From: Elusimicrobiota bacterium
Lineage (GTDB): Bacteria > Elusimicrobiota > Elusimicrobia > 2-02-FULL-39-32
Assembly (NCBI GenBank): GCA_021730935.1
Contig: JAKFYJ010000004.1
Coordinates: 1 to 64,000 of the forward strand
Length of the DNA: 64,000 nucleotides
Reading direction: 5' to 3'
Shown here: positions 10,918-60,405 of the stretch, in pieces
How the letters are laid out: every line of letters begins with the position of its first letter
Numbering within the stretch: the stretch's first letter is position 1
Notes under the pieces: model-generated
The model's database searches: none
Told to the model about the DNA's origin: nothing
What the model saw: the letters and a program-made list of their open reading frames with translations, nothing else
Translations under genes and position numbers: made by a program

Positions 10918-10957
10918 GGAGTTTCCGCCATATGGTATCATATATGCTATTCCGCCG
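10918..10957. promoter_or_regulatory. Short shared divergent promoter region
   Basis: Only 40 bases separate the two divergent ATGs. The centre (10929-10950) is an AT-rich island with CATATG and CATATATG that could hold a -10 for either strand. No Shine-Dalgarno is visible before the cyclase ATG. Promoters probably reach into the coding ends, or the cyclase transcript is nearly leaderless. Confidence 0.35.
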
Positions 10958-12763
10958 ATGGCCGCAGATAAAAAGAAAAGCCTCCGTTTCCGCGTCAGCC
11001 TGGCCGCCACCCTGAGCATTCTGTTTTTCGGGATCGTGGTGGGCGGCACCTTCATCTATAAAGAATACCGCTATCGCCTGAGCGCGGTCGAATCTGAAAT
11101 CAAAAAATCCGCCGATTTCCTTGTGCCGCAAGCCTCCATGCTCCTGCTTCAAAACGATGAGACGGCTTTCCTCACTTTCAGCCGCGCGGCGGAGCGCATC
11201 GTGGGGAAAAATAATTTTTCATATGTCGAGATTGTCGACACGAAAGGGCAGGTGAAAGTCCCTCTGGACACGCTGTCGCAGACGGCCGCGCACGCCAAGG
11301 GGATTTCCGGCGGGCCGTGGGGCGGGATGGCTTTGGGGCAGGATTATGTGATCGAGGAGCGGGAATATCCGGATCAGGGGAAGGTCATCGAGGGCGTTTT
11401 CGGAGTGCTTGAGCAGGACAAAATTTTGGGATACGTGGTTTTGGGGGCAAGCAAGAAACCCATTGAAGACGCGCTTAAGAAAAGCCTGCTGTCGACGATG
11501 GTTTTTTTGCTGGCGGCCATGGCGCTCTCCATCGCGCTTTCGCTGAAATTCGCGCAGATCGCGGCCAAACCGGTTGAGCGGCTCAAAGAAGCGGTCGAGA
11601 AATTTAAAACGTCGGAAGATCTGGAGCTTTTTTCCATTGAAGGCTCTCATGAGGTTTCGGTTCTGGCTTCCTCCATGCGGAACGCTCTGGCCAAAATTCA
11701 GTCGCATAAAGATGAAATGGAGCGGAAAGTTTCCGAGATCAAAGCTTCGGAAGGAAAAACCAAGCATGAGCTCAAAGTCATCTCGGACAGTTTCAGAAAA
11801 CTCTCCAAACATCTCAAGCTGGACGAAGCGGTTTCCACCATCATCGACGACATTGCGCGCGGCATTGTCCATTGCCATGAGGCGTATATCATGCTGACCG
11901 TCTCCGACGAGGGTGAGCCGCTCTCGGCGTTGGGCGGCGCGTCTGAGGAAACGATTGCTGTTTATCCCAGACAATTGGCGAACCGGAAAAATCTGATTTC
12001 ACCGGAGCTGATTGAAGAGGTCCTGAAGAAAGGCGCGGTGGAACATGTTTCGTCGCCGTTTCATTCCTGCGCGATTTATCCTCTCTATTCCGGACAGCAT
12101 GAGCCGATCGGCGTGCTCGTGCTCTCCATCTCGAGCGATTCCGCTTTTGATCCGAACGAGATCGCGGCGCTTTGGAGCGTGATGGAGCCGGTGGGGATGG
12201 CGTTCGACAGGATTTTCCTTCACGCGCAGGTGGAGCGGCTCGCGATTCACGATTCCATGACGGGACTTTTCAATCATCAGAACGTGAGAGACCGGCTTGC
12301 GGAAACCCTCAAGGCCGCGGAGAGGCAGGGGCGCACCGTTTATGTCGTGATGGCCGACATCGATAAATTCAAACGGGTCAATGACACCTATGGACATCCG
12401 GCGGGAGACAAGGTCATCAAGGCTTTTGCGGCTCTGATCAAAAAATCGCTGAGGGCCGGGACTTTCGCGGGACGATACGGCGGGGAAGAATTTTTGATCG
12501 TGCTCGGGGCGACTGATTTTGACGGGGCGCAGAATTTCGCGGAACGCATCCAAAGTCAGGTCCGCTCACTCCAGGTTGAAATCGAGAAAGGGACGCACAT
12601 TAAATTCACCGCGTCCATGGGGCTTGCGGCATTCCCGATGGACGGGAAAAACATGTCGGAACTGATCGAGAACGCGGATGAAGCGCTTTATCGCGCGAAG
12701 GAAACCGGACGCGACAAATATGTCATCTGGAACGAGGAGCCGAAGCGGCTGAAGATCCTGTGA
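10958..12763 (+). CDS. Membrane diguanylate cyclase (sensor-HAMP-GAF-GGDEF)
   Basis: Makes cyclic di-GMP from two GTP. In the 601-residue protein: membrane helix 1 (12-32), a periplasmic sensor region (about 35-175), helix 2 (178-197), HAMP-like linker (198-250), coiled coil (250-285), a GAF-like domain (287-420) and the GGDEF domain (430-590). The active-site loop is R-Y-G-G-E-E-F (506-512), with D-I-D-K-F-K (467-472) for Mg/GTP binding and Y-G-H-P-A-G-D-K. The inhibitory site expected as RxxD is R-A-G-T (499-502), so product inhibition is probably weak. The ATG at 10958 is preferred over an upstream start overlapping the neighbour. The stop overlaps the GTG of the next gene. Confidence 0.93.
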   Translation: MAADKKKSLRFRVSLAATLSILFFGIVVGGTFIYKEYRYRLSAVESEIKKSADFLVPQASMLLLQNDETAFLTFSRAAERIVGKNNFSYVEIVDTKGQVKVPLDTLSQTAAHAKGISGGPWGGMALGQDYVIEEREYPDQGKVIEGVFGVLEQDKILGYVVLGASKKPIEDALKKSLLSTMVFLLAAMALSIALSLKFAQIAAKPVERLKEAVEKFKTSEDLELFSIEGSHEVSVLASSMRNALAKIQSHKDEMERKVSEIKASEGKTKHELKVISDSFRKLSKHLKLDEAVSTIIDDIARGIVHCHEAYIMLTVSDEGEPLSALGGASEETIAVYPRQLANRKNLISPELIEEVLKKGAVEHVSSPFHSCAIYPLYSGQHEPIGVLVLSISSDSAFDPNEIAALWSVMEPVGMAFDRIFLHAQVERLAIHDSMTGLFNHQNVRDRLAETLKAAERQGRTVYVVMADIDKFKRVNDTYGHPAGDKVIKAFAALIKKSLRAGTFAGRYGGEEFLIVLGATDFDGAQNFAERIQSQVRSLQVEIEKGTHIKFTASMGLAAFPMDGKNMSELIENADEALYRAKETGRDKYVIWNEEPKRLKIL

Positions 12764-13317
12764 AAACGTTCGGGCGTCCCTCGGAATGGTCCAAAGAAGA
12801 AGTCCTCGGGCGGGTCTATAAGCTTTGCAAGGGAAAATATGTGCGGGCCAAGGATTTTCCGCCTTATCTCTATAAGCTCTGCAACCGGCATTTCGGCTCC
12901 GTGCGCGCGGCGAAATGGGAAGCGAAGATTATTTTGGGGAAAACCTGGAGCTATGACAAATTTATCAAGTGCGTTTATCAGTTTGCCAAGCCGAAATATC
13001 GCGACGACAAACACTGGCCGGAAAATCTTAAGACGCTGGCAAAACGGTTCTGCGGAAGCATCCGCTCAGCCAAGTGGCAGGCAGGCATCGTAAAAGATAA
13101 CCGGGAAAAGGTTCGGGACCGATATAAGCTGGACGGGCTCTGGACGAAGAAGGAATTCACTGAGCAGTTCAAGGCCTTCTGCACCTACGGATATAAAAAG
13201 TCTTCTCAGGTTCCGGGTTATATGAGGGTGCAGGCGGTCACGCATTATGGGTCCCTGCGCGCCGCGAAATACGCGGTGGGAATCCTCAAGGATCCCCGCC
13301 GAAAAAAACGAAAATAA
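12760..13317 (+). CDS. Three-repeat HNH_repeat-type protein without nuclease
   Basis: A 185-residue basic protein started by a GTG in a GTGA overlap with the cyclase stop, so the two are translationally coupled. It is three copies of a 51-residue unit (W10-G60, W63-D113, W128-D178). Each starts with W-(S/T)-(K/Y) and ends with a G-S-(V/I/L)-R-(A/S)-A-K-(W/Y) block. This resembles the homing-endonuclease-associated repeat (HNH_repeat), a small helical DNA-binding module, but no HNH catalytic motif is present. A DNA-binding regulator working with the cyclase is a reasonable inference. The gene stops six bases from the convergent giant gene. Confidence 0.65.
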   Translation: MKTFGRPSEWSKEEVLGRVYKLCKGKYVRAKDFPPYLYKLCNRHFGSVRAAKWEAKIILGKTWSYDKFIKCVYQFAKPKYRDDKHWPENLKTLAKRFCGSIRSAKWQAGIVKDNREKVRDRYKLDGLWTKKEFTEQFKAFCTYGYKKSSQVPGYMRVQAVTHYGSLRAAKYAVGILKDPRRKKRK

Positions 13318-13323
13318 TATTTT

Positions 13324-16300
13324 TTAGTGGATGACGCCGATCTTGCGGTTGAAGGTGACGACTTTGTCGCCCTTGGCGGTGATCACGGCGACATAGCCGC
13401 CTTTGGAAACTTTGTTGCCGGTCGTATCCGTCCCGTCCCACTCCACATTGTTCGCTCCGAAAGTTCCTCCGGGAGTTCCCGCCGCATAAGAGAATTCGTT
13501 CACTTTGTATCCGAAAAGATCATAGATCGCGATGGTCACTTCCGCGTCCCCGTTCAAGAGATAGGTGATCGTGGTTTTCTCTTTGCGCGAATCAAACGGG
13601 TTCGGATAATTTGAAACGGAGCTGAGCGTCTTGAGATCCGCAAGGCTCCCGACGAAGGTGGGCGCGGCTTCAGCGGACCAGGCGGACGGGCTTCCGGCTC
13701 CGTCATAGGCGCGGATGCGGTAAGAATAAAATTTGCCTTTGGTGCGCGGGACTTCGGTTGGATTCCTGGGGTCTCCTCCGACCGTGTAATTGGTGACCAA
13801 GGCTCCGTCCGCCGTTTTTGCGGAAATGATGCCCACCGTTTTCCACACAGGGCTGGTGTCAACGCGTTCCTGGATTTCATACTGGGCGACGCCGGAACCG
13901 TCATCTGAAGAAGCGGACCAGGTGATCGGGAAGATGCCCGTGCCTGAAACATTGGTGGCGGATGCGCCTCTTGCTCCTGGAGCGCCATAGGCCAGAACGG
14001 CGCTGCCGCTTCCTTTCAGACTCCCGGGGGAAGAGGGGGGCGAGGTGTCAATGCGATACAGCAACAGGGGTTTTTCTGAAGTGACTGGAGCCACAGAGCC
14101 GGAAGAGACTTTCAGGGAAACGGTATATCCTGTGTCTGAAACGGGGGTTCCCTTCGGGTGGAATTGGGGCTGAGAGCCGGAGGCGCCGCGGCTGATGATC
14201 TGGAACGAGCGGGTTCCGGACTTCTTGGCTTGAACCATTTCCATCCCGATGTATATTCTTCCCGTGTCGGGGAACGATTTGGGGATGTCGGCATCCACGG
14301 TCACAGAGGCGCCGGTTGAGGCGGATGCGGAGATTTCCGCGTCGAGATGAACCACCGCTGAGGGGATGAGGGACAGGTTGGAAATTTTCTTGTTGCTCTT
14401 GCCGCTGTCAGCGCTGACATAGCTCTTGGAAGTCTTGGTGAGCTCGTTGAAGGATTCCCCGACGGCCACGGAATAATTCATGTTGCCTGTTTGAGCGGAA
14501 ACGGTCGGCGCCTGGAACACGTCCCAGGAGGCGGAGAGATAGTTCATGAAGTCCGTCAGCGTGGCCTGAGAGGCGGCGTTGGAAAAATTGGTTTTCAGGG
14601 TTTGGAGCAGTCTTGTGGCATTCACGCTGATCCCGACGCTGGTCAGGGCATTGTCGATCGCGGAGTTATAGGTGAGGATTGCGTCTTTATACGGCTGAGT
14701 GACCTCGGCGTCCAGGTCGGCCTGAGGGAGAGCCTGGATTTGAGCGACCAGCGTATCGATGCCGCTGCCGATCGATGCTTTGAGAGACATCAGGACGGAA
14801 TCGCTGTCGATCTTGTTTACGGTGGTGGGTTTGGTCCAGGAGACATAGAGTTCAGAGGCGTTGTTGGACCAGGCGGTTTTGACGAATCCCCCTTCGGAGA
14901 CAGGGACTCTCTGGATCGATCCGTCTCCGGCTCTGTATCGGATGAAGATGTTGGTTTGGAATGTCGTCGTGTCCACCACGATGGCGTCAGGGAATCCGTC
15001 GCCGTTGAAGTCGGAATCCAAAATGCCGTCGCCGTCCAGATCCATTTCCGGAATGCCGTCGCCGTCCATATCAATTTGAGTTTTGGAGCCGGAATTCGTG
15101 ATGTCCACATTGTCGGCAGTGCCGTCCCCGTTGATGTCGATCAGCCGTTCCCCGCCGAGAGTGAGGTTCCCGGGCTGGCCGTTGGAGGCGGACGTTTCGA
15201 GATCGGCTTCCAGAATGACATTCCCGTCTTTGTCGATCGGCAGGCCGTCGGAGTTGAAAGCCACAAAGCCTTTAACGGTTTTTGATATTTTCATGAGCGC
15301 CGGATAACCGTCTTTGGCCATGATCACTTTGACGACGCGCGGATTCACAGTCGGCGTGATGATCTGGGTGATGCTGATGAGGTTTGAAGTGATCGGCGGA
15401 GCTTCCGAGACCAGGGAGGATTGAAGGGCGTTGACGGTTGCGCCCCCCTGGCCGAGGATATCGTTGAATGAAGCAAGCGTCATTCCCACCGAGTGCCCGA
15501 CGACGGAGGCGGCGCTGTTGTCGATCTGTCCGATTTCACCCACGACGAAGATGACGGTGTCCCCGCTGGTGATCCTCAAGTATCCCGCGCCGTCGTCTGA
15601 GAGGTCCACAACCGCCTGTCCGGCGCCTGTCAGGAAGTTCGTTGTTCCGTGGGTGACTTCTCCGATTTTGCGATCGAAAGCGGTTGAGAAGGCTTTGTCC
15701 CCGTTGGCGTCGACCCACACGGAAAGCTTATACAGGTCGCCTTGACCCAGCCCGCTTCCCACGGCTCCTGCAGTGACGGTTCCTTTTTGAGTGAACCGCA
15801 ATTGCCCGATGTCTGTGAAGCTTCCGTTTGTTTTCAGAGAGATCCGCATGAGCGGGACATCGGTTTGCTTCGGCGCGGCATAAGTGGGCGCAATGTTGAA
15901 TCCTGAGACGGACAGGATGACCCCGACGATGGTCACTTTCGTCGATTCATAAGGATAGGTTTGGGAGGCCGTTCCTCCGGGAAGCGACTGTGAAATGTTC
16001 ACGAATAAAGTTGAATCCACTTCGTTCGGCGAATTGACCGTGAATGCGGTATTCCCTGGGAACTTGACTCCGAGACTCCTTCCAGCGGTCGCGAAATCTC
16101 CGATGTCATAGGTCAGGAAATATTGCTGGGCAACGGAGGTCACCGTTTGGGGCTTGCACAGTTCGATGATCGTGCTGGTGAGCGCATCGTTGTTCTGGTC
16201 AAAGAAATCCACTTTCTCGACGGTCGCGCCGGTGGAATGGGCAATTTTGGAGGTGCTTCCGGTTCCGAGTTTGAGGCCGCGGCTGTCGATGCGGAGAGTG

Positions 16301-19300
16301 GTCGTGGAGGTCCCGTTTCGGCTGTAGGACATGAGTTCGGATCCGCTGACAAAGATATATCCGGTTTGCGGGAAAAGCGAAACGTCCGCCACATTCACGA
16401 GGAAGGGAGGCGAAGAGGTTGCCACTCCGAGCTGGAGCGGGTTGCTCAGAGTCGTGTCCGCTCCGCTCACGAGCTCGTCCAGCGAATCCAGGGTGTCGTT
16501 GGGGTTGGCGTCGCGATACACCTTAATGAATTTAATGTCCGTGTTCGAGGTGGTCCCGGTTTTTTCGGGCGTGATCTTTTGCCAAGTCGCAGGCGTTCCC
16601 GAAATCTTCATATTGAAGCGCATCATGATCACATCATCCTGAGCCCTTTGGACCTGCTTGTTTGTGACCTGAGATGCCGCGTCAAACACTCCCACGAGGA
16701 CGCGGTTGGTGACGACGGGGACTTTGAACGTGCTGAACGGATAACTCTGCGAGGCAGTTCCGTTGGGCACATTGATGCTGACATTCGTGTTGAGCGTTGA
16801 ACTGACGTCGTTGGGAGAAGTCACGCCGATCCATCCTCGGTCACCGATCTTCACTCCGACGGAATTCCCGCTTTCAGCGTCGTCGCCGATGTCGTATACG
16901 ACGAAGTAAGTCTGGGCTGTGGGCACGATGGTTTGAGTGTCCAGGGTGATGGTGATCTGGCTCTGGTTGTGGTTGGTTTGATCAAAGATATCGACTTTCT
17001 GAATCGTTGAGCCGGAGGAATGGGCGATGCTCGCGGTGAGCGACGCTCCGAGCCGCTGTCCGCGGGAATCAATGCGGATCGTGGTGCTGGAAAGTTTGGT
17101 ATAGGTCATGAGTTCGGAATCAGAGACATAGGCATATCCGCTTCGAGGCAATCTTGTGGCGTCCAGGACGCTGATCGTGAACGGGGCCGTGTCTGATGCA
17201 AGGATATTGGCCGTGATCGAGGTCTCGGGGTTGGATATCGAGGAATCTCCTGAATCCAGTTTGTCGTTCGCGTTGAAGTCCTGGTAGATCTTCACGAACT
17301 TGACGTCGGTATTCTTTCCGTTCGGAGTCGTGGGGTCCACAACCGAGGATCCCGTGCGTTCGACTTTCATGGAGGTCCAGCGCGCGCTCCCCACATCTGT
17401 TTTAAGGGACATGCGCATCATGGGAATTTCGTCTTGACCCTTGAACACCTGAGACCCTGAAATGTTCGGCACGACGTCGGTCGCTCCAAGTTTGACGATG
17501 CTGGCGACTTCTGTGATTCTTCCGTTGTTCGCGGTGGTATAGGTCGTGAAGGAAACGAAGGAGATGTCGTCCGGAATTTTCACGGTGAAGAAAGAGGTGG
17601 TGAGAATTTCCAGCCCCACATTTTTCCCGACGGTGGCAAGCTCAGAGATGTCATAGGTCACGAAGAAATATTGTGTGTTCGTTGAAATGGTGATGCCGGA
17701 CCCGGTGCCTTTCGTGAGATCAATATCGACGGATTTTGTCTGCGGATCAAAAGATTCTGTGCCGAAAGATGCCAGGTTCGTATAGACGCCCGTGTTCGGG
17801 TTCTGAGTTGTGACCAGCGCGTTGAAGGAGGGCGGGTTGCCGGTGTTTGAAGAAGGGTTCTTCCAGACCTTAACGAGCGCAATGTCGCTCGGCTGGGCCG
17901 TGCCGGCGAGGTTTAAGGTGAGGTTTTTCCATTCCACGGAATTGGCGCTGGCCTGCGTTTGGAACAGCATCATGGGAACGTTCTGCTGGTTCTGGACGAC
18001 CGTCGGGGCCAGGAGATCCGAGTTCGAAATCTGCATCACGTCAACGGTGGGCTCAATGACGGCGGCAGGGCTTTCTCCAGTGGCCGTCATGACATTATAG
18101 AACTGCCAGCTGTGGCCCGCGGCCGTGGGGCCCACCGTGATGCCGATCGTGGGAGGGATCCTCAATTTGAGAACTTCATTTAATGCGGCCAGGCTTGTGT
18201 TGGAGAAGAGGGACGCCGGGTCGATGTCTATGGTCAGGAAGTAGGTGATGGTGCTCCGCTGAACAAGCGTATAATAGGTGCTCCCGTTTGTGGAGTCGTT
18301 GATGTAGATTTCCGCTTTGCCGCCGGAGGGATTGCCGAAGACGCCGGTTCCGACGAGTTTGTCGACGGAAGTGGACAGCTGTCCGGACTGGTCGGCGTCT
18401 CTCCAGAGCTTGATCAGCTTGACGTCAGAGTCAGCGCCGTTCAGGATGCCGGGCTGTTGGCGGTCAAGGAAAAGTTTGGAAAATTGGACCGGGAACCCGC
18501 CGGAAACATCTTCCAGCTGTGTGACGATCTTTAAGAACGCGCGGTTGGTGTCCCCTTGAGTGACTGTGAACCCAACCGCTGATCCGGAAGAGTGTCCGAC
18601 CGCAACGGAACCCAGGACTCCGCGGGTGATGCCCGTGAACGCGTTTGCGGTCCGCGAAGAAATTTGGATGATTTCAGAATCGATCACGGCATAAATCGGG
18701 AACGTTGAAATGAAGAGGGTGGGGTCATTGGTTGAGATGACAGGATCGTCGCTCCAAATTGCGATGGAACTGTCGTTGACCGCGAAGTTCGCGTTCAGCT
18801 TGGGAGCGTGGTGGATCAGGTTGGTTCTGGAATTGGTGTAAATGGGGATGGGGGTGACGTTCACAATTTGGGGCGCGGGCACGATGGTCCCCAAACCTGA
18901 GAGGTATGACGTGAAGGCTGACACCGCGTTGGGCTCTGACACCATATCGTCCACGGGATTGTCGACGCCGTTTGCGTTCTGAGGGAAACTTCCGTTCACT
19001 CCCGGCTCGATCCGCGCGCCCAAGGTTTGCTCAGGCGTCGCTGTCGGATCAATGTCGTAGGCCACGAAATATCTTCTCCCCGCCGGAGGGTTGGCTGTGA
19101 TCGTTTCGATGGTTTCATTGCTGAAGAAGAGGACTTGCGAGCCCAGCGGTCCGGCGGTATTGAAGGTCCCTGTTCCGATGAGGATGTCGTCCGTGGGGTC
19201 AAAGGTTCCGGCTCCGACGCCGGTGTTGTCCTTCCACACGGACACGCGGGTGACTTCTTCCGTCAGGCTTCCGTTGGAGGTCGAGGTTCCGATGCCGTAA

Positions 19301-22300
19301 ACCGTCAACCCTCTCCAAACCGCATCCGCCTGGTCGGAATAGATCGTGAATCCCAGCACGGATTGGGTTGAAGTTTTTTGCTGATAATTCGATTGGTGGA
19401 GATCAAAGGGGACCACGGTGATATTGTCGGCGTATTCATTGACGCGGGCGACATAGGAGTAGCTCTTGCCGGCGGCGCCCACGCCGAAGTTCAGGCTGCC
19501 CACATAGTCCGGAGACTGAACGGAGATATAACTTGTCGCAGGCATTTCAAAGCCGAGCTGAGAGTTCGGGCCGACAGTGGCGAGATAATTGACATTATAC
19601 GTCACGAAATAATCTTTGGCGGCAGTGCCGAGGATTTCCTGGCCTTGCAGAGAGCCCGTGATGCCCACATGCGCTTGGCCCGAGATCACGGTGCCCGCCG
19701 CGAACCAGGTGGTGTTGCCGACAAATTCCCAGGTGCAGCCCGTGAACCGTTTGTTCACCAAGTCCACGCCCGTATAAAGAACGGAGGCTTTCTTGGTCTC
19801 GTCTGACTGCGCGTCGTTGAGCACCAACCGTCCGGGAGCCAGCGGGAAAGGATCGGAGGTGATGGTGAATTTCTGCGTCAAATCGTCCGTGACGGTGACC
19901 GTGGCGTCTCCGGAGGAGGCGGAGACTGCGAGTTGAGAATACGGGAAAACATAGGGGTTTCCGACGGAGTCCGCTGAAACGAGCTGGTCCGTGGTGGAGC
20001 TGAACAAGCCGTTCCCATCGGCGTCGTACCAAACTTTGATCCGGTCCACATCCGTCACTTTATTGCGTTTCAAAACGCCGCTCTGCCCTTGAGAGCTCCA
20101 GCGGTCGAGCTTGATGCCGTTCCAAATGGCCGTGCGGGTTCCGTTCACCTGCAGGGTCAAACGCCCGATCACAAGGTTGGATTCGCCCTGCGTGGTCACG
20201 ACGGGTTTCGAGAAGAAGGGCGTGGTCGCAGGAGGCAGGCTGTTTTTGTTCACGTCCATCAGATCCATTTCGTCCACGGTGGGAACGACGGTCGTGTCTG
20301 TCGACTGGAGCGTCCCGAAATTCTGCATGGTGCCTTCAATGAGCCGGATGTCTCCCTGGTCGATGTGCAGGCCCTGGGTGTTGGCTCCGTTCGTGATGCT
20401 CGCAGAATTTTTGAGACTGTAGGAAATGAAGAAAATCTTGGTGGCGCCGTCCAGAAGGCCGTCGGTGGCCTTGTTCTTGACGTCCAGGGTGACGGAACCG
20501 GCGCTGAAGGTGGAGGTGATCACGGAGTCCGTGACTTCGCTGTCGGCGCCCGGATCAAATCTCGGGTGAGTTCCTCCGCCGATGTTGCTGGTGTTCATAT
20601 ACATGCGGACGTCTTTGATGTCGGCATCGTTTCCGGTTCCGTTTCGGCTCACGCGGATGTTGTCAAGTTTGCCGGTGAATCCGTCCGTCCAGACGTCCAA
20701 ACGGATGATGCCCACATTATCCGTTCCCTGAGGAATGGTGGAGTGCTGCATGGAGAATTGTTCGCCGGCGGTTTGATACCAGGCATTGATGTCGGTGGCG
20801 CTCACAAACACTTTGGCCGCTTCCCGGTTCACGGTCGAAGTGGCGCTTCTCATCGCAAAGTTATTGGAGGCGACGCCCGCCGTGCTTCCGGCGGTCAGGA
20901 AGATATTGGAGTTAGCCGCGCCCAAACGCAGGCCCAAGGCCGTCGGAGTGGTTGCCGTCGTGGATATTCTCACGCAGACGAAGAAGGTTCGGCCTGTGGG
21001 GTTGATGATGGCGCGGCTGCCCGCAGGCGCAGGGCCTTTGGTGTCGAGACTTGTGAATTTCCATCCGGGGATGGCGCCGTCATAGGTGGCGGAATCGATA
21101 TAGGTATCGACTCCATTTTGGACGCCCAGGAGCGTCTGTCCGTTGAACTTGCCGTTGCCGTTTTCATCGCTGTAGAGTTCGACGGCGGCGACATCGGAAG
21201 CGGGAAGGTTTCCGAGTTTTTCGATGTTGATCTGTTCCAAAACTCCCGTCAGACCCGCCACATTGGGTTTCACCTGCATGTCCAGTTTCAGCATCGGGAT
21301 CGGAGCAGGTTTTTCCGCGATGAGGCCGTCCCCCTGATAAAGAGAAGATTTGAAGGCGCCGCCGATGAGTGAGATTTTGTCTTCGTTGACATGGGCGTTG
21401 GTCAGGTCGTCCGCTTCCGGAGCCATGTCCACGGGGGTGATCACAATGCCTGCAGTCACCACGTCATCGTCCGAACGTTTGGTGTCGTCGGTGATTTCTG
21501 TGATGTCGTCTCTCAGAGTGTCGTAGGTATACCCGAATATGCGGGACGGAGTTTTTGCGGACCAATGGCCCAGCGGCGCGCGGCTGGTGATATAGTCCGT
21601 GACGCTCAGGTGCAGATTTTCCTGAATATCGTCTCTCAGCTGAAGCGCGCTGTAAGAGCCGGCGTCGGTGGTTTTATAAATGTAATAGGTCGCGCCGATC
21701 GGAGTGAGCGGCGGAGCGGCCTGGTTGGTCATGCTCACCGTCGAGGATGTTCCGGAATGGGCGAACTCGATTTTGCCGCTGTAATATTGTCCGTTGATCG
21801 GGTCTCCCGTGGCGATATTGCCGAAACGGTCCCGGGCCTTGATGTTGATGAACCCGGGGATGCCCACTTTGAGAGGCGTGGTGTTGTCAAAGCTGTGGTG
21901 GATGCTGAAATAATCCACGTTCGCAGGGGTGATGGTGTGAGACTGCACGACGGTGGGGAGCGCCTGGCTGCCTGTGATCAGGGTGATGGTGACTTTGACA
22001 GTCGCAGTGCCGGCTGTTTCTGTCCAGAAATAGAAATCCTTATATGATCCGCCTCCTGGAATTGGAGAGAGAGTCAAATTCGCCGCTGAACCAAATGGAG
22101 CATATCCGGACGGAGCGTTGGGATCGTCGCCGCCTCTGGCTTTGGCTGAATCGGTGGAATTGATGACCACGGTGGCGCCGTTCGAGTCTGTCACGGTGTC
22201 GTTTCCGAACTGGTCGCGCAGTTGGACGCGGATGTTTGTCTGCGTTGAAGTTCCTGTGGCGTAATTGGAGGCGGCATAGTCCAGATTATATTGCCAGGTG

Positions 22301-25300
22301 GTTCCTGCGATCATGCGCCTTGAAGGCGTGGTGATCACGGCGACTGAGGGAGGGCCTGGAATGACCGTGTAGGCTTGGGTTGAAGCGCTCCACCCGCGCG
22401 AGGTGTTTTCGTCGATCGTCATGATCCAGTTTCCGACCGCAGTGTCGATCAGGTAGAAGGTTGTCGTGTGCTGGCTGGGCGGCGTTGTGGGATACAGTTT
22501 TGCGGCGCCGGGATAAACAAAGGAGGACGGCCCCGAGTTCGTGGGGCTCGCGAATTTTCGGTCTCCGGAGCTGTTCGCGGTGATGTTGAAGGTGACGCCC
22601 TGGCCGAAAGCGTCTTCCACATCGACAGGGGTGGGGTTTGAATATTTGTCCTGAAGCTGGAATGAGAGCATGGATGACGTCGTTCCCGCCTGAAGGCTCG
22701 TGACGGGATTGGAGATCATGACGATCTTGGTCCCGATTCCGGAGCCTTGTTTCGCAGGTTCGATGGAGACGCTCTGGAGCGCGGCGCCCCAGGTCGGAAC
22801 TTGCTGGGTGGCCGAAGCCTGCAGGAGAGGGAAGGTCGTGGAGCTGGCGCCGTAGAGTTCGCTGGAACGCGTGTCCAGATAATAGAAAGTGGCGTAATAT
22901 TGGCCGGTCGGGATCAAAAGGGAAATCGAATCTGTGGAATGAGTGACGAACAAGGCCTGGCTCGCGACCGTGTTGGAACTCAGGGAGAACCCATGAGAGT
23001 CGTTGGTCGCGGACGCAATTCTGGAAGAGATGACGATCACGGTGATGTCCTGAGTCGATGCGGTCACGTTGCCGAAAACGTCCTGCAGTTCCACTTCAAA
23101 GTTTTGCGCCTGGCCGCTGGAAACGGACTCGTGAGACGGTTTTCCGGCGCGCAGTCTGCGGGCGGTGTTGTCGAACCGGACAGACGAGGTGTCCTGCGGA
23201 TTCACGAGCATGGCGTGAACCGCGGGCGTTTTCAAGGATTCATAAGCCGTGAGGGTCCAGGTTCCGGTGCGGCTGTCTTCGCCGGAGGGGGCGGAAGCCA
23301 TGAGGTCTTTGTATCGGAACGAAACTTGGGTCTCGCCGTCTTCGATCGGAACGCTCGGGGACGCGCTCCCGAGACTGGTGTCTGCGGTGTATCCGTTTGG
23401 CGGGCTGTCGGTGGTCCAGAAGCCGTAATGGGTGCCATAAGTCATGCCGGAGGGGGCCGCTCCCGCGACAGTGAAAGCGTTATGGACGGCTTTTTCTGAC
23501 GCGTCTTCATTGAAGGATCCGTCAATGGTTCCGACATGGAGGGTGACGGTGGTTGCGCCTTTCGCGGTGGGGTTGCCGAAATAATCCCGGCGCTGAACGG
23601 TGAAATCTCCTCCTTGTCCGCCGGATGTGGTGGCCTGGAATGAGGTCGGCGAAGAGACATAGATCAGTTCTTTGACATCGCCGCCGATCGTTTTTACGGG
23701 AAGAGAAATGTTGAGCTGGCTGGTGATGAATCCGGAAACGTTATACGGCGTTGCCGTTCCAACCCAGACGCGGGAGGTGTCATCTTTGCGGGTCGAAACG
23801 TAATACCAAATTTCCGGCGAGATCCCGATTTTTCCGTTGACGTCGGTGATCATGCTGGTTGACAGTCCCATGTCGGTCCAGGAAACTTCATCAGCGGTCG
23901 ATTTAAATCCGTTGGAGGAGGCGCTTCCGACGGTGACGCTGGACTGGAGGACCAGGGTCACTCCGGCGCTGGTGACGATGTTTGAATATTGGTCGACGGT
24001 GTCGCCCAAAATTTTGACGCGCCCCAATGATCCCGGGGGAGAATCGTTGGACCCGGCTTCGCGCTCGATGACGCCTGTCGTGGCCGCGTCGTCGCCCGTG
24101 GCTCCGTTGATCGTGACTTTCACGCCGGAGACGGAAGCCGGGTTCACCTGAATGGTGGGCTGGGTGGAATACCCGCTTCTCTCCGTGTTGATCGTGCTGT
24201 TGCCGACCTGCTGGGCTTTGAGCCATCTCTGGCCGGCATATTTCAGAGTGAACCCGCCGTTTCCGAAGGTGTGGCGGCCGGGGGACGTTTCGGCAAATCC
24301 AAGATACGTATAATTCGAAGGGAGAGACGCGTTCTGAACCGAGAGCGCGCCCGCCTCGGCGCTGAACTGGATTCCGGAATTATAGACATAAGCTCCGGTC
24401 GTGAGCGCGTTGTGCCAACGGTCGTGGGCCACGACGTCTCCGGAAATGGATTGTCCGGCGATCATGGTGGTGGACGAGAAGTTTTCAAAGTGCAAGTGAT
24501 GAGCCTGGCCCGGCCAGACCATGAGGCCGCTGGACGTGTCTGTTGATCGCGTCAGGAACAGCGTGTTGGTGGAAGCTGTCGTTGCCACGACCGTATAAGA
24601 TGAAATCGCAAGCCGGGGGGTCACGGTGAAGTTCGCAACGCCGCTCCGGATGTCCTGGGCAGATGCCGCGGCCGCGTTCGGGTCATTGGGGAACGTAAGA
24701 GTGACATCCACGGCTCCCGTGATCGCGGTGCTTCGGCGGTTATAGAAGCGGTCGACCAGATAGACTTTCACGAAATCGGTCAAAGAATTTTCGCTCCCGC
24801 CGCTCACATCCACGGTCATCTGGTGAGTCGTCGGATATCCGGATTTCCCCAGAGGCGCTGTGAAGTATTTACCTTCCGCGATGCTTTCTCCGGGGAGCAC
24901 GACCAGGAACCCGTTCGGCGAAGAGGCGCTGACGGTGAATTGGGGCGAAATTGCGGCCGCGTTGCTTGCGGGGCTGTCTTTGTCCTGATACGTGTTGGCG
25001 ATATCGTCCGCCGTCAGGATGTGGCTGGTGGCACGAGTGATCAGCGTCGTGAGGAAGGTTTGCTGGCCGTTGGTGAGGGAATTTTGCGCGGGCTCGGAAT
25101 CGTAGAGATCGGATGTCCGGATGCGGACCACAGGCTGACCGTCGACAGGTTCCGTCGATAAATTCATGTAATAGTCCACGACCTGGGCGGTCACGGCGAA
25201 TGCGGTTCCTGCCGTTTGGGTGTTGGGCGTTCCGCTTTTGCCGCCGGAAGGATAGGTCCCGCTTCCGGGCGCGGCCGTTTCTCCGGGGAGGATCAGCTGA

Positions 25301-28300
25301 ATGCCTCCTTTGAGCGCAACATCGTTCGGGTTGCGCGGGTTCACGGTAAAGAGCGAGAAGGTTCCGGATTGATCGTCATCCGTCAGTCCCGTGTCCGGAT
25401 TGTCGATCGCCGTCACGTATTGAGAAGTGGACGCGGTCCGAAGCGTCACGGAGAACACGGCATATCCGACAGTGTCGTCCACGGTTTGGACCGCAGGCTC
25501 CACGTCATAGGCATCTGCGGGAGTTTGAAGCTGGATCACGGGAGCGACGCCGGTCTTGACGTTGTAATAGGTGTCCGTGACATAAACGCTCACATTGAAA
25601 GCGGTTCCAGCGGTCTGGAGCGACGGGGTTCCTCCGCGCGCTTCGACAATGGAGTTGGCCCCCTGGTTGAGAGATTGCCCGGGGAGGAGCGCGACGAGTT
25701 TTGAAGCGGGACCTGCGGTGACAGTGAAGGTCTGGCTGCGGGACGACCCGGAGCCGTTGCTCAAGTTCGGCGGGAGGACGTCTCCGTCCCATGCTTCGAT
25801 CTGGGCCGTTCCGGCGCGGCGGAGAATAATCGGGTCTCCGGTCGCGGCGGCGAAGACAGCCGCGCCGTTCGTGGTTGTTTTGGTTGAGGGTTCGACATCG
25901 TTGGGATCGTCCCAAGTTTTAACATAAACTTGCGAGCTGGTGGTGGTGACCACGTTCCAAAAGGCGTCCGTGACATTCACGGTCGCAGGGAATCCGACGC
26001 CGGCGGCCTGCGTGTTGGGAGTTGCGACGGTGCGTCCGGTGACAGATCCCGGGGCCGTGACTTCTCCCGGAGCCAGGACCTGAACGCGCGCCGGGGTCCC
26101 GGGGTTTACGGTCAACGTTGAAGAGAAGATGCTTCCGAGGCTGGGGCTCACGCCGTCCAAGTCTTCAGCCTTCACGCGCTGGATGCCGCCTTTCCTGAAC
26201 TTAAGATATTCGGTCGGGATTGTGGTGATGGTGAATGAGCCGGAAATCATGGAGAACGTCGGAGGCGAAGGGTCCGTGTCATAAGGGTCATCCGGCGTGG
26301 TCACCGTGATGGATTGTGTTGTGGAAACCTGATTGCTGTATTGGTCGGTTGCATAAACGGTGGCGGTGAACGCGGTTCCGGCGGTCTGAGCCGTTGCAGT
26401 TCCCGTTTTTCCGACGATGGGCGTTGTTTTGCCTTGCACGCGGGTTTCCCCCGGAAGAATGACGATCAGGCGGTCAGCGGCATCGGGATCGACGGTGATG
26501 ACAGGAGAGGTGTCCGAGGTGAACCTGAAACCCGTGTCTTCGGCGACCAGCGTCCGCGTGGAGGCCGTATTCATTCTTACGCTCGTGAACGTCAGAGTGG
26601 TTTGACCCGCGGAAAGCGAGTTGGGGTTGGCGGGAAGCCATGAGGATTCGGAATCATAGGGGTCGTCCGGGGTTTTCAATTGGACCGTTATTGAAACATC
26701 TGTCGAGGCCTGGTTATAGAAACTGTCGACGAGGTTCACGACCACGTCAAAGGCGGAGCCGGCGACCGCGTTCGGGCGGCCGCTCCAGGCTGAGAAGTTC
26801 GGGGCGTCTCCCGTTTTTCCAAATCCGGTGGTGGAGCCGGGGAGCGCGTTTTCCCCAGGCAAGAGAACTTGGAGCCTCACTGCGGACCCTGCCGTGACGG
26901 GAACGGCCCTGGAACCGCCCTGGTCGTTCAGAGAAGGATAATACGTCCCGGAGTTCGCAGTGCTCGCGCGGATCCCCCATCCGGGAGCAAGGTTCGCCGT
27001 CTGCATCGTCAGGGAGAAGATGGTGGATCCGTTCACAAGCTGTTGGTTCGCGGGTTCCGTGTCGTAAAGATCGGTGGTGCGCAGGTTGATGACGGGGTTG
27101 GTGTCGGTGATGTTGTAAAAATTGTCCACGGCGTTCACGGTGACTGAGAAGCCCGCTCCCGCGGTTTGCGTCGAGATCCCCGTCCAGCTTTTCCCGACGG
27201 TGGAACCGGGCACTGAGATTTCGTTCGGGATCAGGATCTGCAGGCGCGTGGGCGAGGACGCGAGAACGGTGAAGGTGGAAGAATTGTAATAGGCCCCGGC
27301 GCCCACCAGAGGAGCGCTGTTGTCCCGCATCTGCACTTTCGTGCTTGCGGATGCGGTCACCAGGACATAATTGAAGATCGTGGTTCCGTTTTGCAGGAAG
27401 AGCCCGGAAGGATAAGGATCATTGTCATAAGGATCGTCGGTGTTGTGGCGGATGTTGGAATTGTCATTGTCGATGATGTTGTAATAAGCGTCCACCATTT
27501 TCACGATCACGCTCGTGGAAACGCCTGCGGTCCAGTTTTGCGGAGTTCCGTTTTTGCCCGCGGTTCCGCTGAAACCAGGGCTGCCGATAATTTTTCCGGG
27601 CACGCCGGTTTCTCCGGGGACCAGGACCTGCAGGGCGTTCGCCGCGGCATAGTTCACAGGCACAGCGGGGGAAGTGGAAGTTCGGCTCGCCACTCCATCG
27701 TCCGCTCTAATTTTCCAGCCGGGAGTTTTGTTGGATTTGATGAAGGTCCAGGAGATGTTCGTCGCGCCGTTTTGCAAGACGACATTCGTGAGGTCCGAAT
27801 CATAAGGATCTTCGGAATAGACATTCACCGTCGGAGAAACGTTGGTCGTGTTGTTCCAATACAAGTCGACGGCGCGGATGGTGATGGTGAAGGCCGTGCC
27901 CGCGGTCTGGGTCGTGATCGACACCGAGGTTTTTCCTCCCGTGGAAGCGCCGGAATCATAGGGGTGTTTCGCGGGATCCGCGGTCTCGGGAGGAACGAGG
28001 ATCTGATATTTCACGAAGGAATCGGGGAGCAGGGCGATGGCCTGGGTCGAAGACGAGGTTGAGACGCCTCCGAGCAGTCCGGCGGCTTTCACTTTGGTGT
28101 ATTTGTTTTCCGCGCGCCGAAGAGCCACGAAGAAGTTTGTTGTTCCGTTGACCAGAGAAGCCGTCGCAGGGACCACGGAATAGGGATCGTCATAAGGCGA
28201 GGCTTCGTCATATGAAATCGTGACCACCGTGGAGGTGGTGGTGACCAGGTTGTATCCGGCGTCCGTGGCATAAACCGTCACGGTGAAAGTGGATCCCGCA

Positions 28301-31300
28301 GTTTGGGCGGTCGGAGTCATCGTGGAGAATTTGCCGTTCGAGGTGCCTTCGTTGAATTGTTCGCCGGGAGCCAAGACGAGGAGTTTGGAAGCGGCGCCCG
28401 GATAAACAATGATGGGCGTGGAGGCGTCCGCAGTGTAAAGGGCCTCAAGGCCGACGGCAGAAGGCCCGGTTGCCGCCGTCAGGGTCCAGCCTGTGTTCTG
28501 GTTTCTTGTGCGGAGCTTCACGGGGACGATGGCTTGTCCGTTGGAGAGAGCGACTTCTCCGGGATCGCTTGAGAGCGTGTTGTTGGGGTCGTTTGAAGCG
28601 AACACGAGTTTGGAAGTGGTTCCGGTGTTGCGGTTGAAATATTTGTCGGTGACGTTCACCGTGACGTTGAAATAAGTTTCAACGGGCTGTGAAGAGATGA
28701 CGACAGACGATTTCCCGAGAGGAGAACCGGGCACTTGCGTCTCCCCCGGCACGAGAATTTGCAGGCGGGCGGCCGTTCCGGTTGAGGCAGAAATGATTGT
28801 GGAGGCATGCGCGGTCAGAGAATTCCCCGCGGATGTGGAAACTCTGGTGAGCCAGCTGCCCGCGGTGTGGAACGCAATGGTTGCGGTTCCGCTTCCGTTG
28901 GAAACCGTGAAAGTGGCGGGATCGACATCATAGGGATCCGAAGTCTGAATGTTCACATTCGCGGTCGAGGAGGTCACGATGTTCCATTCCGAGTCTGTGA
29001 TCAGGACCGTGACGGTGAAAGTGGAGTCCACCGTGGCTCCGGTGAGGCTTCCGCCTTTTCCGGTCGAGGATCCGGGATTTCTGGTTTCGCCCGGAGCCAG
29101 CAGGAGGAGTTTGGAGGCGGCTCCGTTGGAAACGGGCACATTCGTGGAAATGCCCTCAAGGAAATAAGCTCCGGAAGCGGTGGAAGCGATGATCTGCCAT
29201 CCGGAAGAACTCACCGTCTTGAAGGTGACGGAGAAGGTCGACACGGCGCCGGTCGTGAACATGTTGGGAGCCGTCGCGGGAGCTGTGGTCGCGAACTGAT
29301 CGGTCACGCGGATGGTGGAAAGCGTTGAGGGCACGGTGTTGGTGGCGATCGGGTTATAGAACCGGTCCACGAGGTAAACGATGACCTGAGTTGAGATGCC
29401 CGCGGATTGAGTCAAAGCCGTTCCGATTTTTCCTCCCGTTCCGTCATAAGGAGGCATGCCGGGGACCAGCGTTTCTCCAGGGACCACCACCATGAGGCGC
29501 TGACCTGTGGAAGGTGTGACCGCATAGGCGCTTGAAATTCCGCTTTGGATGCCGGCGAGAGAAGCCGTAACCTGAGCGGCGGATGCGGACGTATAGAACA
29601 CAACCTGGAACTGTCTTTGGCTTGAGGAGAGGGGGGCGCTGTTGCCGCCGGGGAATGTTCCATAGGCGTCGGTTCCGGAAAGAGCGATGTTGGATGAAAT
29701 GTTCGGGACGAGGTTCCACTGGTTGTCGGTCGCGCGCACGGTGACCGTGAAGGTGGTCCCGGCCATGACGGAACCGGTATAAAGCGCGGTGCCCGATTTC
29801 CCTGAGACGCTGCCTTCAACCGCGGTTTCTCCGGGGAGGAGAACCTGAAGTTTGGTGAACGATGAAGGCGCGACCGTGATCGTTGAAGACGTGTCTCTGT
29901 GAACTTCCCATCCGGCCGCGGAAATCGAGATCCATTGGCTGCCCTGAGTCTTGAACCTCACGGGGAAGATGCTCCCTTCTCCGTTGGCGATGGCGACGGA
30001 GTTCATGGAAGTGAAGTTGGGATCGGATGACGAACTGATGGAAATCGTGATCGCGGGGTTGTCGGTCCTGCGGTTGAAGCGGGAATCGACCGCGCGCACT
30101 GTGACGGTGAAGTCTTCATTGACGACCTGATCGGAGACTGTTCCCTGGCGTCCGGTGAGGGATCCCTGCAAGGCCGTTTCTCCGGGGACCAGGACCAATA
30201 GATAATTTTCCGTGCTGTTGGCGTTGACCGTATAGGTGCTGAAAGCGGTGATAAGGTTCAGCGTGGCGGTTGCGGCCGTGACGATCGGGGTCGTGGCCGG
30301 CGTGCCGCCCAATCCGTTGTGCCGCGCGGTCTTGGGAACCATCATGAAGACGGAGGTTCCGTTGACGAGCGCCGCTGTCCTGGGATCCGGAGCGTCATAA
30401 GGATCATCGGTGGCGACGCTGACCGCGGTGTTGGAATCCACGATGTTGCCCCAGTTGTCCGTCGCGTCCAGAGTGACCTGCATCGTGACGTTCACGGTTG
30501 AGCGCGAGATCACTCCGCTTTTCCCTGCCGTGGTTCCGGGGTTTCTGGATTCCCCGGGGCCCAGGAGGCGCAATTTGGCGAGGCTGTTCGGCGTGAGAGT
30601 GAACGAGGGAGTGATATAGGTTTGATTTGCAAGCGTTGTGGTGGTGGCTGTGATTTGATAGTTCGTTCCGGAGTAATTGACGGCCGTATAAAGAGTGAAG
30701 TTTAAGGTCCCGGTTCCATTGGAAAGCATTGTGGATCCCAGGGAAGCCGCATTGGGATCGTTTGATGTGAACGACGCTCCGCCGCTATAGGTCGGGTCCG
30801 GGTTCCATCGGTCGTCTGTGGCATAAACCGTCAACTGATAGGATTTTCCGGCGAGGAACTGGTCGGCGGCCGCTTCCCCATCAGGAGAACCGTTCTTGCC
30901 CGCTTGGTTCGTGTCAGGGCCTCCGGCGGTGTAAGGCGATCTCCCGCGGTTCAAAGTTTCGCCCGGCATCAGGACCAGGAGGCGGTCTGCGGGTTTCGCG
31001 CTCACAATGACGACCGCGCTTGTGCTGGGAGACAGAACATTGCCGGTATCCCAGACATTGATGGACTGGGTTCCGGCGGTGACGAGGGTGAAATAGAAAG
31101 CCGTTGCGCCGGTGGTGAGCGGGAGAATTCTTGAAGTGCCTGACGGCTCGGTGTCGTTCGGATCTGTGGAATCGGCGTCAAGCGTGATGTTGGAAGAAAT
31201 GTTCAGGTTCCAGTAATCGTCCACGCTCCTGACTGTCGCGGTTGTGGTTTGTCCGGTGAACATCGCGGTGGGACTGCCGGTCCGGCCGCCGGTGACGCCG

Positions 31301-34300
31301 GTGTCATAGGGCGATCTTCCGGGGTCCGCTGTTTCTCCAGGGAGAAGGACCTGCAGTTTGGTGTTGAATCCCGGGTTCACTCTCACGCCGGCAGATTGGG
31401 TGGAGACAAGCGCGTCTCCGGCAACCGCCTGAGCGGTCAGCACATGCGAGGAATAGACCATCACGGCGGCGTTTGCAGAACGGTTGTGGGTCGCCCGGTA
31501 GAACGTCACCGAGAAGACCGTCGTGCCGTTCACGAGAGGCTGATTGTTCGGCAAGGTGGTGTAAGGATCAGACTGGGACGCGTGGGTGCTGATCCTGATG
31601 GTTGTGGCCGCAGACGGGTTCGTGCGGTTCCAGTTGATGTCGGTGGACCAAACGGAAATCTGGATGGGAACGCCGGCGGTTGAAACTTGCACGGATCCCG
31701 ATTTGCCTTGATAGGATCCGGGCAGAGCGGATTCTCCGGGCAGGAGCATCTGGATCAATGCCGCGGAACTGGGCGTGACCTGGATTCCTTGGGTCGCCGG
31801 AGAATAATTCGCGGAAGTATAATTCACGCTGAAAGAGCCCTGAACCGTGTGGCTCGCCATGATGACGGTGCGCTGAGCTCCGGGCGTGGCCGTGCGCAAT
31901 TTGATGCTGGAAAGGGTGGCCACGCCGTTGGTCGTGAAGATATCGGCCGGAAGACCTTCGGCGAATTGTTCGTTGCCGCTGGTGGTGAGCGTGATGCCGA
32001 CCGCATCGTCCTGAACGAGGTTCCATTTCGCGTCCACGGTGCGGACCGTCACAGTGAATGTCGTGGTGCTCTTGATGGGGTCCGGCGAGGCCGCGGTTTT
32101 TCCCGTGGGGCTTCCGGGATCCGCCACTTCTCCCGGGAGCAGGACTTGCAGGAACGCTCCGGTTCCGGCTGTGACGGCAAAAGGAGTCGGCGTGATGTAA
32201 TAAGTCGGCGGCTGGTTCAGCCAGGAAAGGTTCGCTTCCGCTTTGATGTTTTGGTTTCCAGCGGTCACGAAGCGGACCCAGAAGTTGCTGGTCCCGTTCA
32301 CGAGCGCGGCGGAATTGGGTTCTGTGTCCCACTTGTCGTTGGGCGTGATCACGGAAACGGATGTGTTCGCATTCGTGTCGGTGTTGTAATAACGGTCGAT
32401 GCCGTAAACCGTGACCATGGTCGACTGGTTGACGATGAGCCCGTTCGGCGTTCCGGATTTTCCGAACGGCGAAGTGGTTTTTCCGGCCACCCGAGTTTCT
32501 CCGGGGAGAACGACGAGGAGTTCGGTGACGGACCCCGCAGTCACGGTCATGGTGTCCTGGTTGAGGCCGGTGATTGACTGCGTCGCGGGGAGATCATAAT
32601 TATCCTGCGTGACGCCGGCGCCTGTGGCGGTGAGGGTCCGCCTGCCTGCCGTGGTCATGGCGATCGAAATGGTTTTTTGTCCGCCGCTCAAGGTGACCGT
32701 GCTGGCATTGGTCGTCGCGTCCGTGAAGGTGTAATAGGGGTCGTCGGTCTGGATCGTCACGACGGGCTGTGAAGAGGTGACGAGGTTCCAATATTTATCC
32801 ACGACCCGCACGGTGGCATTCACGGCGGTTCCTGCCGTGGGAGATTTCGCCGATCCGGAACGGCCTCCGGGACCGGTGGTTTTTCCGGGGCTATAGGTTT
32901 CCGTGTCCATCTGCACCATCAAATGGTGGGCGGCTCCGGGGAGGACGGTGAAGTTGGCCTGGGCCGCGGTGATCCCGCTGACCGGGTCCGTGTCTTCCAC
33001 GCGGATCGTGCGCACGCCGCTTTTCCTCATGAGGAGCGTGGAGGTGAAAGTTTTTGTTCCCTTGTCGACGGAGACGAACTGATATTTCTGCGGGAGGCCA
33101 TAATATTCGTCGGGCGTGCTGTCCGAGTCTTCGCTCTCAACATCGTTCGCGGTCACGGTTGAGAATTGAATCTTGCCGGTATAGGCCGTGGCTCTCTGGC
33201 CCGTGGCATCGAGCGCTTCAACAGAAACGCTGAGCAGAGTGCCTGCCGTCTGGGTGTCCTGGAACACCCGCATGGCCAGCTGAGTGGCGGGAGCGGAGAT
33301 GGTGAACTTGGGTCCGGTTTTCAGCGCGGTCGACTCCGTGTTCCCGACGTTGTCTTTTGCGCGGGTCCAGATCACATATTGTTTGCCCTTGACCCAGCCG
33401 TTCCCGGAGGTGATGCCGCTATAAGACCACGCTCCCGAGTTGTCCATGGAGTCCATGTCCACCCAGGTCACGCCGCCGACGACATCGGTCCAGGTGGATC
33501 CATTCCAATAATAATCCGCTCCGTTATCGGCGCATCCGGCGCACCCGAAGGTGACGGGTCCGTTTCCGGTGTTGTCATTTTCATCGCGCAGGATCAGGAC
33601 TTGAGCGTTGCCCTGCATCCAGCCCGCGGAGGCCTTCACACCGGAGGCGTTGTTGCTGATGTTCCAGGTGATGACGCCTCCGGAATCCTGAGCGGTTCCG
33701 TTGATGACTTTGGTGGTGTCATAAGCGTTGCCGTTGAGGATGCCTCCGGCTCCGCTCAAAAGTTCCGAAACGGGGAGGCTGGTGTCATATAAAAATTCGT
33801 TGCCTGATCCGACGGACTGGGTGTTTCCGACGGAATCGGAGGCGGTGGATTTCACGATGTAATGTTTTCCGTCTTCAAGAGGGAACGCCGCAGGGTTATA
33901 AGTCCAGGAGGACGTGTAAACGCTTGTGGGCACGATCCAATTCTGCGAGGACAGATTGAAGCTTGAACCTGCGTGGCTGAAGAATTTGCCGGACTCCACT
34001 TCCTGCAGTGAGAGCCGGATCGCCACCACCGCGCTCGTGACGTCTGAAGCGGTTCCGGTGAGAGGCGTTCCCACGGAATTGTAAGCGCGGTTGTCCGCAG
34101 GATGCGAGAAGAAGCTTTGCGGCGCCGTGTTGTCGAAAGTGAAGGTGCGCGTCGACCAGGCGAGTTCCTTCAGAGTCATGGACGAATAGTCCGTGTATCT
34201 GGAATTGTCTTCAGCCTGGATGTTGATGTAATAAGACGATCCGCTTGTCCAGGCCGTGCCGTTCACAAACTGCAGAGGCGCATATCCCCAGGCCGCGCTG

Positions 34301-60216: not shown

Positions 60217-60405
60217 TCGTTTTTTATCGTCGAGCTCATCGTACGCGCGCGCGCAAAAAATCTGTTTCTCAAATGTCAAAAATCGGGTCAAACGCGCAAG
60301 GCCGCTCTAGCGGCATTCATCCATTCATATAAACGACATTGTCAGGTTTCGGTGCGATCAATGCAGGGAACGGTCGTGAAAGTTCTCTGCGGCGCTGCGG
60401 CGGGA
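60217..60405 (-). other. Leader between the 180-aa gene and the giant gene
   Basis: Contains a perfect hairpin GCCGCT-AG-AGCGGC (60301-60314) without a following U-run, and an alternating GCGCGCGCGCGTAC run (60241-60254). No convincing promoter is visible, and no strong Shine-Dalgarno precedes the ATG at 60216. The giant gene is therefore probably expressed from the upstream riboswitch promoter. Confidence 0.45.

Follow-up and report, generated by a model that had tools for sequence, protein, structure and literature searches.

In the diguanylate cyclase of T. maritima the RxxD motif of the primary inhibitory site (I-site) spans residues 158-161 and GGDEF residues 167-171, so that D161 stands six residues before G167; R115 of the secondary site of tDGC stands 11 residues before D126 (PMC4215984). 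RxxD is present in 57% of cyclases by one count (PMC4215984) and in just over 60% by another (PMC4937426), and XCC4471, which is without RxxD, is still inhibited competitively (cited in PMC4937426). XCC4471 and YfiN are GGDEF cyclases with a degenerate or absent I-site and with membrane segments, and so is the cyclase described here, which differs from them in a sensor region assigned to no family and in being apparently coupled to a repeat protein. This protein and its gene are called REP below. The HNH_repeat family (PF18780, a homing-endonuclease-associated repeat) is likewise built of tandem repeats of ~53 residues, and the ends of the REP repeats resemble its FGS...A..AGI/L signature. Where HNH_repeat reads FGSW..AL, however, REP has (C/F)GS(V/I)R.AKWEA, and REP is without a nuclease. 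The c-di-GMP-dependent transcription factors BldD and VpsT may be taken as a working analogy only, for cyclase signalling combined with a transcription regulator; family scans gave no sequence relation between them and REP.

The window analysed here is a stretch of 64,000 nucleotides (G000:C1:1-64000), part of a 2.7-Mb Elusimicrobiota draft genome (G000). It was compared with relatives in a GTDB family of nine genomes, among them the congeners G001 and G002; the assemblies of many of these relatives are drafts in fragments, parts of which are masked (as N in G001 and G002). The features of the locus are collected in Table 1. Our favoured reading, to which we give about an even chance, is a genus-specific, translationally coupled operon whose two products, a sensor cyclase and a protein that probably binds nucleic acid, would control surface genes.

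Table 1. Features of the cyclase-REP locus, in window positions
Feature	Position	Strand	Basis or remark
-10-like hexamer TATCAT, 16 nt before the cyclase ATG	10936..10941	+	sequence comparison; putative
Diguanylate cyclase, 601 aa: TM, ~140-aa extracytoplasmic sensor region, TM, coiled coil, GAF, GGDEF	10958..12763	+	domain searches; TM read from sequence
GAF domain, residues 288-417	11819..12208	+	PF13185 (GAF_2) E=1.2e-6, 29.2 bits, just over cut-off 28.6
GGDEF domain, residues 429-586	12242..12715	+	PF00990 E=2.1e-47; TIGR00254 E=1.5e-50
Degenerate primary I-site R-A-G-T (RxxD expected), residues 499-502	12452..12463	+	R-A-G-A in both congeners
Intact active-site motif GGEEF, residues 508-512	12479..12493	+	sequence
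GTGA overlap of cyclase stop and REP start (4 bases)	12760..12763	+	ATGA in G001, TTGA in G002
REP, 185 aa, GTG start, three repeats, pI 10.1, net charge +31, no nuclease domain	12760..13317	+	
REP repeat 1, 53 residues	12784..12942	+	repeat profile; modelled
REP repeat 2, 53 residues	12943..13101	+	three-helix model, mean pLDDT 88.7
REP repeat 3, 53 residues	13138..13296	+	repeat profile; modelled
Convergent 15,655-aa surface-protein ORF, Ig-like and other repeats, FlgD-Ig-like C-terminal tail	13324..60291	-	neighbour, outside the operon

The cyclase and its inhibitory site

The GGDEF domain of the first gene scored 161.3 bits against PF00990, above the curated cut-off of 23.8. The metal-binding aspartate (D-x-D, MADIDKFK) and the N/GH/GD signature (NDTYGH...GD) are intact, as is the GGEEF active site that a preliminary description of this DNA had pointed out. 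By its domain and motifs the protein is classed as a diguanylate cyclase of the GGDEF type, which would be expected to synthesize c-di-GMP. The putative -10 hexamer before the gene has counterparts in G001 and G002, TATAAT and TATTAT, which lie 6 and 8 nt upstream of the start, and was not reported by a consensus promoter scan.

The same description had read the I-site as R-A-G-T with its aspartate missing, and had taken feedback by c-di-GMP to be probably reduced. The first of these readings was borne out. In a register based on the T. maritima residue numbers (PMC4215984), T502 stands six residues before the first G of GGEEF, where the Asp of RxxD would be, and neither the window cyclase nor its two congeners has Asp there. 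Among the cyclase orthologues of other genera, which are 37-44% identical, those of G004, G005, G007 and G008 have RxxE and that of G003 has RxxD. The loss of the I-site Asp is specific to the genus that joins cyclase and REP, yet this is one lineage only. Other cyclases of the same genome read R-P-V-D, R-D-S-D, R-R-S-D and R-E-T-D at the site; the one at G000:C10:61259, with Y-E-T-D, departs from RxxD, and L029 has H-P-G-V near the I-site position.

The claim on feedback stood in part. The loss of the Asp, kept throughout the genus, is a real trait, but it is no proof of relaxed inhibition, and product feedback on the cyclase may be reduced. I-site loss is commonplace, since the published counts given above leave so many cyclases without RxxD. 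XCC4471 remains competitively inhibited without it. The window cyclase also has an Arg 11 residues before its metal Asp, which is the secondary-site spacing of tDGC. Its loops differ in length from those of what we take to be the PleD sequence, which was used as an alignment aid only. Taken alone, the loss of the I-site is of little importance.

The repeat protein and its distant kinship

REP has three repeats and no nuclease, as had been proposed; a Pfam/NCBIfam family search found neither an HNH nor a LAGLIDADG nuclease in it. Each repeat is predicted to form three helices (residues 12-23, 35-45 and 48-54 in the first repeat), with helices 2 and 3 parted by a short turn at a conserved (F/C)GS. 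The model of a single repeat, with the mean pLDDT given in Table 1, had a pTM of 0.67, and that of whole REP a pTM of 0.36, so the mutual arrangement of the three repeats is unreliable in the latter. No family model passed its cut-off with REP, and searches of PHROGs, NCBIfam and PDB sequences returned no relative at a significant level. Fold searches with whole REP and with one repeat gave nothing significant in PDB, and otherwise weak, mostly unnamed viral matches only.

The preliminary description had assigned the repeats to HNH_repeat, and of this assignment a distant kinship was retained. Against PF18780, REP reached 16.6 bits (E=0.01), under the gathering score of 26, and the best member of the REP family reached E=0.0038. 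Matched directly, profile to profile, with 20 genuine PF18780 repeats of the phylum, REP gave no support for kinship (probability 3.8%, score 14.3, shuffled maximum 15.8). Set against HNH and L041 repeats together, REP scored 26.6 over 50 columns (probability 82%), where shuffled columns reached at most 14.6. In L041 (L041:538-1803, + strand; G054) a CxxC...H...H segment, judged MucR/Ros-like by eye, precedes some five repeats of the HNH_repeat type; the encoded protein has no nuclease and itself matches PF18780 at E=4.2e-11. No Pfam zinc-finger model matched the segment, and its label as a zinc finger rests on the CxxC...H...H pattern. This protein is the best profile match to REP and shares with it the lack of a nuclease and several repeats opening 'WTKE'; unlike REP it has the N-terminal CxxC...H...H, is longer (422-aa frame) and comes from a different lineage. 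Because the kinship shows only via the bridge of L041 repeats, REP is best regarded as a distant cousin of PF18780 and not as a member, and DNA binding by REP is plausible, not established.

Every one of the nine genomes in the GTDB family has REP; another 332 Elusimicrobiota genomes yielded no copy. A search with the repeat profile gave the same set and one weak match, a 42-aa frame at E=0.0025. A REP match in G030 (L011) was discarded as chance, as the frame holds stops and there is no repeat-like sequence there. Outside the phylum, one contig scan sensitive to close relatives, one viral scan and phage records were covered, and neither viral contigs nor phage records held a relative. REP and its G001 copy differ mostly at third codon positions (32/16/94 differences by position), and REP is under purifying selection. 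Its tree is vertical-looking with G001, G002 and G006.

A second REP copy lies elsewhere in the genome (L017:6762-7478, - strand; G000:C62) and has an extra HTH/excisionase-like N-terminal segment of ~50 residues. This segment matched HTH_17 of Pfam at E=0.0042, below the cut-off, and a Cox-like excisionase of PHROGs at E=0.0058. Because of this weak HTH_17/excisionase-like segment in the copy, REP itself probably binds nucleic acid. In G006, a 97-aa ORF directly upstream of REP (L015:7311-7604, + strand) looks by eye like one further repeat, and it had no family match.

Gene overlap and surface-protein neighbourhoods

The GTGA overlap of the cyclase stop with the next start, noted before, is real and more than chance, since ATGA and TTGA occupy the same spot in G001 and G002. 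The exact overlap is thus kept in three species with three different start codons and at a REP identity of about 57-82%. It is the stop/start overlap that is conserved between the species, and from it we infer coupling of translation. The pair was found in three of the nine family genomes, all of one genus, and five other family genomes have the cyclase orthologue apart from REP. The pairing had been called unusual, and the comparison agrees: it arose once, in a single genus, with pair and overlap present in both congeners and the genes separate in more distant orthologues. Pairing as a general feature was rejected. Neither gene needs the other, since both persist apart outside the genus.

Such a distribution would also fit two co-transcribed neighbours with unrelated functions, whose overlap reflects gene packing only. 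Other 4-base overlaps do occur, for instance in G004 and G002, where REP overlaps the gene that follows it. The exact overlap kept across three start codons, at the REP divergence given above, argues against packing as the whole explanation, and we hold it to be possible, if rather unlikely.

The surface-protein ORF next to the operon, exceptionally long for a bacterial gene, reaches to within 6 bp of the REP stop, and REP and the giant ORF have the same convergent arrangement in G001. The next gene after the pair in G002 resembles one for a DNA glycosylase, and a convergent UPF0164/PorV-like gene comes after it. In G004, G005, G007 and G008, REP is flanked on one side by a gene that is SLBB/polysaccharide-export-like, on weak Pfam matches, and on the other by a gene for a large exported protein, of 1,660-1,828 aa where complete. 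It precedes an exported-looking protein in G003, and the copy on C62 is followed by an ORF of 2,196 aa or more; no surface-gene neighbour was recognisable in G006. Altogether, by raw count, genes that are exported, large, PorV-like or SLBB-type lie next to REP or near it at nine of ten loci.

The cyclase orthologues in G003, G004 (by eye), G007 and G008 stand directly or nearly behind PorV/UPF0164-like outer-membrane genes, and in G003, G007 and G008 a giant gene lies beyond. Since the neighbourhoods of REP and of the cyclase orthologues each show such genes, the two occur independently in surface-protein loci. Outside the genus, cyclase and REP are usually found in exported surface-protein loci, and in this genus they are joined. 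The promoters of the cyclase and of the giant gene had no shared motif of 10 or more bases that could be an operator common to both.

REP often adjoins or overlaps very long coding sequences, and this would suit an RNA-binding protein acting at the mRNA level, for example on very long surface-protein transcripts, and not on DNA. A small protein of very basic helical repeats with no confident match to a DNA-binding family would fit such a role. On the other hand, the nearest relatives that could be detected for REP are repeats in homing endonucleases and in a zinc-finger-like protein, and the N-terminal segment of its paralogue is weakly HTH-like, so we consider this reading unlikely. It is very improbable that REP is a decayed homing-endonuclease remnant placed after the cyclase by chance: the PF18780 match is marginal and several PF18780 proteins of the phylum do bear an HNH nuclease, but every genome of the family has REP and no other searched genome of the phylum does, REP is under purifying selection, has a vertical-looking tree and no relative in phage records or viral contigs, and its coupling is conserved.

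Proposed role of the pair

In the operon that we favour, the cyclase would be a membrane sensor, with its extracytoplasmic region, GAF and active GGDEF, that raises c-di-GMP on an outside or cytoplasmic signal. It would probably be less restrained by its own product, because the primary I-site is lost. Translational coupling would hold cyclase and REP at a fixed ratio. REP, with three helix-turn-helix-like repeats, would most likely bind DNA, less likely RNA, near surface-protein genes, and would set how strongly genes close by for exported or giant surface proteins are expressed; this control might have some interplay with c-di-GMP. Against this reading stand the failure of family models and fold searches to place REP, the lack of a motif shared by the two promoters, the single origin of the pairing, and the neighbours of REP in G006, where no surface gene was recognised, and in G002, where the glycosylase-like gene comes next.

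In a wider form of this proposal, REP would found a class of three-repeat, DNA-binding regulators, particular to the bacterial family, that act on giant surface-protein and exopolysaccharide-type loci. In this genus the activity of REP would be tied to c-di-GMP from a feedback-deregulated cyclase made from the same mRNA at a fixed ratio, which would amount to a new type of dedicated cyclase-effector pair. We regard this wider form as quite doubtful.

As far as searched, REP is confined to one bacterial family, where it stands repeatedly beside long surface-protein genes and once in an operon with a cyclase. REP offers a testable entry point to the control of exceptionally long surface-protein genes in this little-studied lineage.

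Some further observations concern the surroundings of the two genes. At the end of REP in G005 there is an interspersed, palindromic-looking repeat (L021:1370-1440, + strand; SFRRKPESS...GLRRNDG), which leaves REP in frame with the next gene, and a similar sequence (VIPAKAGIQ...) lies upstream. We did not read the continuous frame as a fusion, since the join resembles a copy of the interspersed repeat also found upstream. No EAL phosphodiesterase was found in genome G000, which has three PilZ-domain matches as candidate c-di-GMP receptors. The gene divergent from the cyclase (9169-11055, - strand) had no match in Pfam or NCBIfam. Homology with its relatives starts only from about residue 37, so its true start is probably an ATG near 10917.
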